DNA of 7,299 nt from Bacteroidota bacterium. Lineage in GTDB: Bacteria; Bacteroidota; Bacteroidia; Bacteroidales; Bacteroidaceae. Of this stretch, positions 3,999 through 5,062 are shown piece by piece (position 1 is the stretch's first letter; every line of letters begins with the position of its first letter). The stretch is from the NCBI GenBank assembly GCA_023458215.1, contig JAEXAJ010000016.1, positions 1 through 7,299 of the forward strand. Direction: 5' to 3'. The notes under the pieces are model-generated. The model had not been told where the DNA came from, ran no database searches, and saw nothing but the letters and a program-made list of their open reading frames with translations. Made by a program: the position numbers and the translations under genes.

Positions 3999-4502
3999 AT
4001 GAATATACAGGAATTTAAAGAATATTCCCGCTTGGGGATCGGAACGCTTATCGGGCTATCTTTGATGGCTATTGCGTTAAGCTTGTCATCTTGTAAGACA
4101 AGAACCGTATATATGCCTTTTGAAACCAAAGTAGTAGACAGCGTTATATATCATGATACTGCCTTCCAAGAGAAACTGATTCCCTATAAGGATAGTGTAT
4201 CTACTCGTGATACCACGTCTTTTTTGAGTAATCCTTATGCATATAGCTATGCGGGGTTGAAGGATGGTTTTCTGTATCATTCCCTTGGTATATATCCTTT
4301 TGCCACGGTAAGGATAAATGTGCCTTATTTTGTGGAGAAGATACGCCGTATCGAGATACCTAAACCTTATCCGGTTGAAAGGGAACTTAGTTGGTGGGAG
4401 AAAACAAAGATGGACATTGGGGGATACGCCATTGTTGCCATTGTAATAACGATATTGATTGTAGTGGGAAAACTTGTATATAAACTAAAGAAAGGAGGAT
4501 GA
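3999..4502 (+). CDS. Probable unimolecular spanin (lipoprotein with C-terminal transmembrane helix, 167 aa)
   Basis: Spanins complete lysis of Gram-negative hosts by joining inner and outer membranes after the wall is cut. Here one protein carries both anchors. A lipoprotein signal (hydrophobic 12-30) ends in LSLSSC with the lipobox Cys at 32, so the mature N terminus would be acylated and sent to the outer membrane. A C-terminal helix (about 140-160, GGYAIVAIVITILIVVGKLV), flanked by WWEKTKMD and KLKKGG, would sit in the inner membrane. The periplasmic part between (33-139) is strand-like with few charges in its middle. Lysine, not aspartate, follows the Cys. This layout is that of u-spanins such as T1 gp11. 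The start at 3999 has AAGG at 3991-3994. It follows the holin and endolysin but is separated from them by adhesin genes. The role is inferred from topology and context. Confidence 0.72.
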   Translation: MNIQEFKEYSRLGIGTLIGLSLMAIALSLSSCKTRTVYMPFETKVVDSVIYHDTAFQEKLIPYKDSVSTRDTTSFLSNPYAYSYAGLKDGFLYHSLGIYPFATVRINVPYFVEKIRRIEIPKPYPVERELSWWEKTKMDIGGYAIVAIVITILIVVGKLVYKLKKGG

Positions 4503-4518
4503 TATGATTTAGTAATAA
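4491..4518 (+). promoter_or_regulatory. Strong Shine-Dalgarno followed by two-codon ORFs (fMet-Ile-stop)
   Basis: AAAGGAGG (4491-4498) lies in the last codons of the spanin gene. It is followed by ATG ATA TGA (4499-4507, overlapping the spanin stop) and ATG ATT TAG TAA TAA (4504-4518). The second ATG has a good 5-nt spacing from the Shine-Dalgarno. Both mini-ORFs would encode fMet-Ile. Either this is the leftover start of a lost downstream gene (an in-frame continuation FSNNLTGMSRSISQYINK follows the TGA at 4505), or a minigene comparable in form to the lambda bar minigenes (AUG-AUA-stop). Only the sequence arrangement is certain. Confidence 0.4.
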
Positions 4519-4563
4519 CTTAACCGGGATGAGTAGAAGCATCTCGCAATACATTAACAAATG

Positions 4564-4706
4564 ATCTCTTTTTGGGGCTTAGAGATAGATAAAGAAAGCC
4601 CGTCCCTTGCTACGTCTGGTAAATCACAAGGGACCACAGTCACAATCCAATGCTGTTACAAGGCTTTCAGTCTTCAAATAACATACGGGTTGTGACTATT
4701 GTTTTT
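4564..4706 (+). ncRNA. Candidate structured RNA: H-type pseudoknot, two hairpins and T-rich tail
   Basis: Within about 140 nt nearly everything can pair. ATCTCT (4564-4569) pairs with AGAGAT (4581-4586), and GGGCTT (4575-4580) in its loop pairs with AAGCCC (4596-4601): a compact H-type pseudoknot with a 9-nt A-rich crossing loop. Directly abutting is an 8-bp hairpin, GTCCCTTG/CAAGGGAC (4602-4609, 4627-4634). After 3 nt comes an 11-bp stem with one G-U, AGTCACAATCC/GGGTTGTGACT (4638-4648, 4687-4697), containing TGTTA/TAACA (4654-4658, 4679-4683), followed by ATTGTTTTT (4698-4706), terminator-like. GAAAGCC (4594-4600) can instead pair with GGCTTTC (4662-4668), an alternative fold. No promoter is obvious, so processing from the late mRNA is possible. 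A 44-codon ORF (4561-4695, MISFWGLEID...) runs through it and is the alternative reading. Structure is from eye only. Confidence 0.4.
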
Positions 4707-4765
4707 AATAACTTTATGTTTTATAACAGATATGAAAACAAAAGATTTATACCAGACGGTGAACT

Positions 4766-4790
4766 ACCCATGAGCTAAAGACTTGTGGGT
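4766..4790 (+). repeat. Hairpin resembling IS200/IS605-type ends
   Basis: ACCCATGAG (4766-4774) pairs with CTTGTGGGT (4782-4790): nine pairs, two of them wobble, around the loop CTAAAGA, followed by TTT. The context GTGAACTACCCA, then CTAAAG, then GTGGGTTTT recalls the subterminal hairpins of IS200/IS605-family elements as I remember them. No transposase or TnpB gene is in the window, so at most this is an orphan end or remnant. It may equally be a hairpin ahead of the next gene, whose possible starts at 4785 and 4794 lie in or right behind it. Confidence 0.4.
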
Positions 4791-4814
4791 TTTATGGCGA
4801 TTAATATAAATGCT

Positions 4815-5048
4815 ATGGCAAATTATAATTACGAAGAGGAAAGCGTGAACGCTTTAATTAAATGGGCTGAGACCGCACAATTACCCCAAGAGGTTATATT
4901 GAGTGCTGCGGAACATATTACCGACACCAGTATTTATGTTCGTGCCAACATTAATGACATCAAGCAACATTATCCTGATCAGTTCTATAATCCAGGAATT
5001 GACAGGCTGTATCGGTTAAAAGAATTTATAGAAGGGACGGCAGAATAA
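4815..5048 (+). CDS. DUF6965-like small protein of unknown function (77 aa)
   Basis: I chose the ATG at 4815 (MANYNYEEES) because the other in-frame starts, GTG 4785 and ATG 4794, lie in or directly behind a stable hairpin; 4794 remains possible and adds seven residues. The protein is small, acidic and helical: WAETAQLPQEVILSAAEHITD (about 17-37), then YVRANINDIKQHY, then DRLYRLKEFIEG near the C terminus. This order (LP-x-E, a 'DTS-YV' start of a second helix, and a final DRL-x-RLKE helix) resembles the Bacteroidales family annotated as DUF6965; this is a recollection, not a search. The function is unknown. It converges with the leftward DUF5053 unit across a terminator. Confidence 0.6.
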   Translation: MANYNYEEESVNALIKWAETAQLPQEVILSAAEHITDTSIYVRANINDIKQHYPDQFYNPGIDRLYRLKEFIEGTAE

Positions 5049-5062
5049 GTCGTCTCTTTAAT

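Follow-up and report, generated by a model that had tools for sequence, protein, structure and literature searches.

A plus-strand pseudoknot and a predicted minus-strand small RNA encoded by one DNA segment in Bacteroidales phages

The locus and the fold of its RNA

The window, i.e. the whole stretch of 7,299 nt of DNA analysed here, is a phage or prophage segment. It carries a GH108 endolysin gene at 1744-2259, assigned by a profile match, and a tyrosine integrase gene near its right end. On the plus strand at 3999..4502 is a gene (hereafter gene A) for a protein of 167 aa that has no match in Pfam or PHROGs; its position, an LSSC lipobox and a C-terminal membrane stretch suggest that it is spanin-like. 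The DUF6965 gene (4794..5048, plus strand; Pfam PF22292, E 6.5e-17) lies downstream of the element described below. An earlier note, made from the letters of this DNA alone, had placed a compact structured RNA at 4564-4706, comprising a pseudoknot, a hairpin at 4602-4634 and a stem at 4638-4697. All of these pairings are present in the sequence and the fold is real. The description was incomplete, in that the conserved element extends upstream to AAAGGAGG at 4491 and downstream to about 4733, and the downstream hairpins resemble a worn gene for an antisense small RNA.

The element begins on the plus strand with the Shine-Dalgarno-like AAAGGAGG and a two-codon ORF (together 4491..4512), recognised by eye and in an alignment of relatives (A1). 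The ORF is ATG-ATT-TAG at 4504-4512, for which AAAGGAGG would be a strong Shine-Dalgarno sequence at a spacing of 5 nt. Elsewhere it reads ATG-ACT-TAG (L007/L012), ATG-AAA-TAG (L021/L022) or ATG-AAG-TAG (L031), the last in frame with gene A. Such an ORF recalls phage minigenes. There follows hairpin 1 (4525..4546, plus strand), CGGGATG-AGTAGAAG-CATCTCG, seen in the fold; comparison by eye indicates that its loop GTAGAAG is conserved, with compensatory changes in the stem between phages.

The H-type pseudoknot occupies 4564..4601 of the plus strand, and is indicated both by the sequence and by comparison with homologues. Stem P1, read directly from the sequence, comprises 6 bp between 4564-4569 and 4581-4586. 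P2 is also 6 bp in length, formed between 4575-4580 and 4596-4601, with zero bases between the inner arms. L1 is 4570-4574, and the crossing loop at 4587-4595, AGATAAAGA, is A-rich. Hairpin 2 (4602..4634, plus strand) is a variable segment, in which 4602-4609 form 8 bp with 4627-4634 (GTCCCTTG/CAAGGGAC). After a linker (4635-4637) there is a long hairpin (4638..4697, plus strand) having an 11-bp base (4638-4648 with 4687-4697, including one U.G pair on the plus strand) together with inner and apical stems; this is the window's version of the antisense rod discussed below. Directly 3′ of the 11-bp stem is ATTGTTTTT, at 4698-4706. A simple terminator scan called no terminator near 4706 on the plus strand.

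When folded by RNAfold (i.e. without pseudoknots) 4564-4706 has an energy of -43.9 kcal/mol, compared with a mean of -29.9 (sd 3.75) for shuffled sequences. This corresponds to a z of -3.74, and none of 200 shuffles was equally good, bearing out the earlier suggestion that there is more pairing than expected by chance. For the longer segment 4488-4745 z is -3.08. The minus strand folds more weakly (4585-4735; z -2.25, with 4 of 200 shuffles equally good). Chance folding is ruled out by the comparison with shuffled sequences, taken with the covariation of P1 among homologues.

Relatives of the element and conservation of the pseudoknot

We collected 52 non-redundant relatives, drawn from phages and prophages of Bacteroidales and from a small number of chromosomal sites. 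Five records of annotated phages were matched by 4400-5060 in a blastn search suited to distant relatives. Two of these are contigs of gut phages (L006 and L007), which match over about 4479-4601; the other three match the DUF6965 gene. The conserved order in alignment A1 is the end of the upstream gene, AAAGGAGG, the two-codon ORF, the hairpin with the GTAGAAG loop and the pseudoknot. Protein and pattern scans added L004, L005/L013, L012, L014, L016 (Phocaeicola coprophilus), L021, L022 and L024, and three further pattern matches (L015, L018 and L023) were judged by eye to be due to chance. The L004 element is identical in L011 and in L017 (Bacteroides gallinarum). Gene A has relatives in L004 and L005 (62% and 64% identity), with the same element 3′ of both. 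L014 has the window's GCCCGTCCCTT junction and the 5′ arm of hairpin 2, where the stored sequence stops; viral contigs had no match to a pattern based on hairpin 2 of the window. Four relatives folded from the pseudoknot through the long hairpin gave z values of -6.8 to -9.3. A blast search with 4470-4800 in 158 genomes of one genus returned six short weak matches only; one of these, L050, was inspected and is unrelated.

Covariance models were constructed from six (R1), 20 (R2) and 37 copies (R3). With R1, matches were obtained in 18 of the 399 genomes searched from the family to which B. gallinarum belongs; these include the two seed genomes and a doubtful match (L042). R2 matched 18 of 393 genomes of the order, including one seed and two doubtful ones; the doubtful matches of the two models (L042, L067 and L068) stand in these genome tallies and are left out of the copy counts. 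R3 matched 53 of the 399 family genomes when E was limited to 0.001, and found as many as three distinct copies in a genome. Two genomes, G258 and G203, have three distinct copies each, a fourth match being the other strand of one copy; this is consistent with several related prophages. In the phylum R3 matched only four of 395 genomes, two of which were already in the training set, and the other two copies (L091 and L092) also carry the promoter-like box discussed below. The window was found by R2 at E 4.9e-7, and thus belongs to the family. L009 contains a copy that R1 matches weakly, and a blast search with this copy led to hankyphage p00 and its related records (five of the seven records found; L045). 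The element is therefore present in hankyphages, described in PMC12135933 as widespread transposable phages of gut Bacteroides.

In many copies the upstream genes belong by position to the lysis region, and in hankyphage-type copies (L045) the upstream gene is a DUF4376 gene behind the DGR reverse transcriptase. Downstream of some copies is a gene for a 97-aa protein; in L028 this protein has a weak likeness to DnaA-C (E 3.9e-5, which does not reach the Pfam cut-off), and its relative in L004 has no match. Others are followed by a gene for a protein of 80 aa with a weak likeness to Mor (E 0.0055 and 0.0088, again short of the cut-off), by a thymidylate synthase gene or by genes for D12-class DNA methylases. 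The proposal in the earlier note that the element might regulate the DUF6965-like gene is unsupported, since the relatives examined have other genes downstream. The copy in L009 (2818-2971) lies directly behind a DUF6965 gene related to the window's 4794-5048, i.e. with that gene on the opposite side compared with the window, and is without the pseudoknot.

Eight copies look chromosomal from their neighbours, judged partly by eye (L039, L040, L041, L059, L061, L062, L064 and L065), and a P2 of 4 bp is missing from all eight. Three of them (L059, L061 and L062) are flanked by an ECF sigma gene on one side and a rubrerythrin gene on the other; Pfam confirms both genes in L059 and the sigma gene in L061, the remainder being assigned by eye. 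In these three genomes of the order a copy of the predicted antisense RNA is found at the same chromosomal place (element from 1501 onward), and in L059 a Fur-family gene follows the rubrerythrin gene. We also note that the window has a TATCTTTG box on its minus strand at 1218-1225, alongside a ATCCCGTC..GGCGGGAT hairpin and then AACGACAAAA (1139-1225), and that a similar hairpin with AACGACAAAA adjoins the copies in L039, L040 and L041.

P2 is mostly GGGG to GGGGGCTT with its complement across the copies, and the sequence of P1 varies widely, with more than ten versions (e.g. CTCT/AGAG, ATTCT/AGAAT, ATCCT/AGGAT and TGCCC/GGGCA). Applying a fixed rule to 48 rows, and dropping the duplicates L022, L034 and L035, gave 30 copies with a P2 of at least 4 bp, among them the window, L005 and L014. 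The summed score for pairing of each copy's own P1 arms was 139, compared with 99 (sd 8.5) for arms permuted between copies without regard to their relatedness, and 0 of 10000 permutations scored as high. Taking one copy per 3′ arm (21 copies) the scores were 90 and 62.9 (3 of 10000). Of the 13 distinct copies found later with R3, 12 have a P2 of at least 4 bp, and their P1 scores were 63.5 for own and 39.8 (sd 5.2) for permuted arms (0 of 10000). For all 42 copies with a usable P2, six further duplicates having been dropped, own arms scored 202.5 and permuted arms 131.3 (sd 10.3; 0 of 4000 as high), with the P1 cut-off of 4.5 reached in 30 copies and missed in 12. Swapped arms often reach a score of 5 (31.7% of 852 swaps, compared with 20 of 30 for own arms) because the arms are biased to pyrimidine and purine. 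On this comparison of sequences the predicted pseudoknot is kept by compensatory change. The structured RNA proposed in the earlier note is thus conserved, and the covariation that it had suggested looking for among homologues is found in the pseudoknot.

In the 30 copies that exceed the P1 cut-off the mean lengths are 3.1 nt for L1, 8.3 nt for L3, 5.2 bp for P1 and 5.8 bp for P2. With this H-type geometry the short loop would need to span the minor groove of P2 if the RNA were made from the minus strand, so the pseudoknot is suited to the plus strand. In 20 of these 30 copies an ORF of 60 codons or more has its stop codon close to the start of P1, no more than 20 nt before it or 4 nt after it; the remaining 10, including the window, are without such an adjoining stop codon. 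The stop codon in L073 lies within P1 itself.

A predicted small RNA on the opposite strand

The sequence TAnnTTTG is found on the minus strand, outside the long hairpin, in 50 of the 52 non-redundant relatives (and in 42 of 48 rows of an earlier alignment), where nn is TC, CC, CT, CA, TT, TA or AT. This is the -7 consensus of the primary sigma factor of Bacteroides, as given in PMC7366714. No consistent TTTG at -33 was seen in the 48 rows. The models contain the columns of the box, so their matches are not blind to it; free variation confined to nn is as a promoter predicts. The candidate antisense promoter is a sequence match found in the relatives and absent in the window.

Proceeding from the box, the minus strand contains a rod, then a strand complementary to the apical loop of the rod, and then a U-rich tract (e.g. 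GGGGGCUUUUUU). An intrinsic (Rho-independent) terminator would have a GC helix with the U-tract directly after it. The G-run that precedes the U-rich tract was identified by eye, and its partner strand is in the apical loop, far upstream. From the sequences we predict that the antisense RNA of the relatives would end at the site corresponding to 4591..4601 of the window, read as GGGCTTTCTTT on the minus strand. The site shares its DNA with P2 and the A-rich loop of the pseudoknot; a single C-run/G-run provides stem 2 of the pseudoknot when read on the plus strand, and the final stem of the putative small RNA when read on the minus strand. Box and 3′ end are 114-144 nt apart in the 45 copies summarised, with a mean of 126 nt, and 110 nt apart in L065; the predicted antisense RNA would be about 125 nt in all.

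The rod is a covarying helix of about 40 bp on the minus strand. In an alignment of 37 copies (A8) 91.9% of its cells are paired, with 413 cells changed on both sides, and its covariation score is 0.667, compared with 0.187 when partners are shuffled and 0.056-0.117 when they are slid. Because A8 was fitted to the structure, its pairing and covariation values are biased in favour of that structure. To reach the 3′ end, the loop would have to bend back over the length of the 40-bp rod. A fold-back ruler, i.e. an outer stem equal in length to the inner stem, is absent in 45 copies, the means being 16.5 and 21.9 bp with a correlation of -0.68.

The strand on which these helices are selected can be examined from their stability and wobble pairs. 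The helix between the loop and the 3′ end has a mean energy of -23.5 kcal/mol on the minus strand versus -19.8 kcal/mol on the plus strand; the minus strand gives the more stable helix in 23 of 24 relatives (the wrong C-run was taken for L043), and in 11 of 13 later copies. A column-wise count on A8 gives a weaker difference than this per-copy test, with 85.3% of cells paired on the minus and 78.6% on the plus strand. The outer and inner stems are independent of the loop-to-3′-end helix. They have 44 A.C cells (i.e. G.U on the minus strand) versus 21 G.U cells on the plus strand, and 31 cells with other mismatches; the wobbles favour the minus strand in 22 copies and the plus strand in six. 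The apical stem is opposite in character, with 61 plus-strand G.U versus three A.C cells. The tests on the apical stem and on the loop-to-3′-end helix amount to one piece of evidence because the same bases are used in both, and we read the apical segment as having two folds, pairing with the 3′ end on the minus strand and locally on the plus strand. The energies of the whole rod are about equal on the two strands. The wobbles of the outer and inner stems and the loop-to-3′-end helix point to selection of a structured antisense RNA on the minus strand, the apical stem being contrary.

In the window, AAAGGAGG, the two-codon ORF, hairpin 1 and a 6-bp P1 are retained. At the position of the antisense promoter box (4725..4732, minus strand) the sequence is TATCTGTT in place of the TAnnTTTG of the relatives, and there is no TAnnTTTG on either strand between 4064 and 5788. 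The rod is altered, hairpin 2 is local and the 11-bp stem has its wobble on the plus strand; the loop-to-3′-end helix is weak, at -14.3 kcal/mol on the minus and -14.8 kcal/mol on the plus strand. We think that the antisense RNA has been lost from the window and the sense half kept, because the box reads TATCTGTT, the rod is altered and the loop-to-3′-end helix is weak. As no close relative of the whole element was found, the antisense RNA might instead have been absent there from the start.

Possible function and comparison with known systems

Comparison shows an H-type pseudoknot on the plus strand and, in nearly all relatives, the features of a putative small-RNA gene on the minus strand. 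The explanation to which we lean, at a little short of an even chance, is countertranscript control between a late phage mRNA and the predicted antisense RNA, of which the window has a partly worn copy. The steps that go beyond the two encoded RNAs are those that we infer. The antisense RNA would be made from a host-type promoter, and its pairing with the sense message could extend from the pseudoknot as far as the leader of the gene that follows. In several copies that gene encodes a DNA methylase or a protein with a weak likeness to DnaA-C or Mor. A ribosome arriving at the stop codon of gene A would open the sense pseudoknot. When folded, the pseudoknot would hide the C-run from the G-run of the antisense RNA, and so would decide whether a duplex starts. 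In the window probably only the sense half still works, because the antisense box is gone. Counting against this explanation are the plus-strand preference of the apical stem, the fold-back required of the loop and the lack of a ruler for it, the 12 of 42 copies that miss the P1 cut-off, the 10 of 30 pseudoknot copies with no stop codon alongside, the missing box in the window, and the chromosomal-looking copies, which keep the predicted small RNA without a pseudoknot. More speculatively, and with distinctly less confidence, the shared segment might act as a lock, encoding P2 and the A-rich loop in one RNA, where the pseudoknot would close off the end of a late message, and the closing helix and U-tract in the other, a countertranscript. 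Whichever RNA folds first would then decide between a duplex and independent messages, providing a switch between lysogeny and late-gene expression made from RNA alone.

The main rival to countertranscript control is that the antisense RNA acts in trans as a structured RNA, e.g. by binding RNA polymerase in the manner of 6S RNA or by binding a host protein, the pseudoknot serving simply to insulate the small-RNA gene from late transcription or RNA decay. We consider this possible, if somewhat unlikely. The structure of the predicted RNA is conserved far beyond its sequence and the length from box to 3′ end is confined (114-144 nt, or 110 nt in L065). Moreover the chromosomal-looking copies, three of them between ECF sigma and rubrerythrin genes, have neither a pseudoknot nor a phage neighbour, which suggests that there the small RNA has a role of its own in trans. 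It is not the resident 6S RNA, however, as the element is found in just 53 of the 399 family genomes. The Rfam 6S model itself gave two weak matches and none over its cut-off in eight genomes, and since this model may miss Bacteroides 6S the comparison is a weak one; no 6S call was made by Rfam on the scanned copies of the element. B. thetaiotaomicron is reported in PMC7366714 to have its own 6S RNA.

The remaining explanations place the function on the plus strand. The element could be an attenuator, in which translation of gene A opens the pseudoknot and the C-run pairs with the apical G-run, changing expression of the next gene, with the opposite-strand promoter being secondary. The plus strand indeed offers mutually exclusive pairings (P2, the C-run with the apical G-run, and the apical hairpin), the stop codon is beside the pseudoknot in two-thirds of the 30 copies, and the apical stem keeps its plus-strand G.U pairs. 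Yet in the relatives checked by eye no plus-strand U-tract comes after it, the C-run/apical helix has at least one minus-strand G.U (i.e. a plus-strand A.C mismatch) in 23 of 24 copies, and the minus-strand box is present in 50 of 52; we find an attenuator improbable. Less probable again is an ordinary 3′-end structure, with hairpins that stabilise or end the late operon mRNA and a pseudoknot of no special function. The location behind late genes, and in the window the 11-bp stem followed by ATTGTTTTT, would suit such a structure, but it does not account for the covariation of P1 or for the minus-strand box and wobble bias, and the simple terminator scan calls nothing there. Lastly, the 44-codon ORF at 4561-4695 might be a real small gene with the pairings as by-products. 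Its frame is open in the window and similar residues occur in L006, but it is not conserved among 12 copies including the window. There is an ATG five codons upstream in four, sixteen codons upstream in one (L014) and none in seven, and a stop codon is reached after 3 to 53 codons in the 11 copies whose sequence does not run out. Two of the outcomes that the earlier note named as refuting its structured RNA, a lack of compensatory changes in homologues and codon conservation of this ORF, are contrary to what is seen. We reject the ORF as a gene, giving it hardly any chance.

No family in Rfam 15 was above its gathering cut-off on the window, in agreement with the earlier note, or on the 24 loci scanned (23 accepted copies and the doubtful L068; the remaining accepted copies, including those of hankyphages, were left out), and a known Rfam family is rejected for the scanned copies. 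Below the cut-off only mir-192 (E 3.4, L063) and SCARNA7 (E 3.8, L066) touched a copy. Pistol-ribozyme and preQ1-like topologies were considered and Rfam made no call. The ribozyme or riboswitch also envisaged earlier finds no support. We recognised no description of the element in the passages searched of the open-access literature. The supplements of PMC8040213 hold thousands of candidates. One of these, HMP_4078, is described in the text as palindromic, found mostly in Bacteroidetes and close to phage domains, so the element may already have been predicted, unnamed, in that work. The element is common (53 of 399 family genomes) and present in hankyphages, yet has no Rfam family on the scanned copies. 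If the antisense RNA is made, it would provide a handle on the means by which these little-understood prophages restrain or release late genes. It would also exemplify a single DNA segment that carries, on its opposite strands, two RNA structures under selection.

Several known RNAs resemble parts of the element. Two short stems and an A-rich crossing loop are typical of H-type pseudoknots in phage mRNAs and of preQ1-I riboswitches; the element has these too, but is positioned after a stop codon, shares its DNA with a predicted antisense RNA and receives no Rfam call. BTnc049 and other Bacteroides small RNAs in Rfam are likewise intergenic. In L040 BTnc049 (RF04179, E 1e-16) is about 110 nt from the element and on the strand opposite the antisense RNA, and does not overlap it; it is a separate stretch, about 40 nt beyond the small AACGACAAAA hairpin beside the element. 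6S RNA is a long rod with an internal loop, and the predicted antisense RNA is similarly a long rod-like RNA with an internal loop, differing in its loop-to-3′-end helix, its phage location and its patchy distribution. Countertranscript control of repZ in ColIb-P9/IncI plasmids uses an antisense Inc RNA and, as a switch, a pseudoknot that is needed for translation of the downstream gene once a leader ORF has been read. The element resembles this in having a pseudoknot in its sense leader, a predicted stem-loop RNA encoded antisense on the same DNA, complementary stretches that are masked and, by eye and in some copies only, a short upstream ORF. By contrast with repZ, the element has no replication gene and its pseudoknot is behind an upstream phage gene, there are chromosomal-looking copies without the pseudoknot, and the predicted antisense RNA would end inside the pseudoknot itself.
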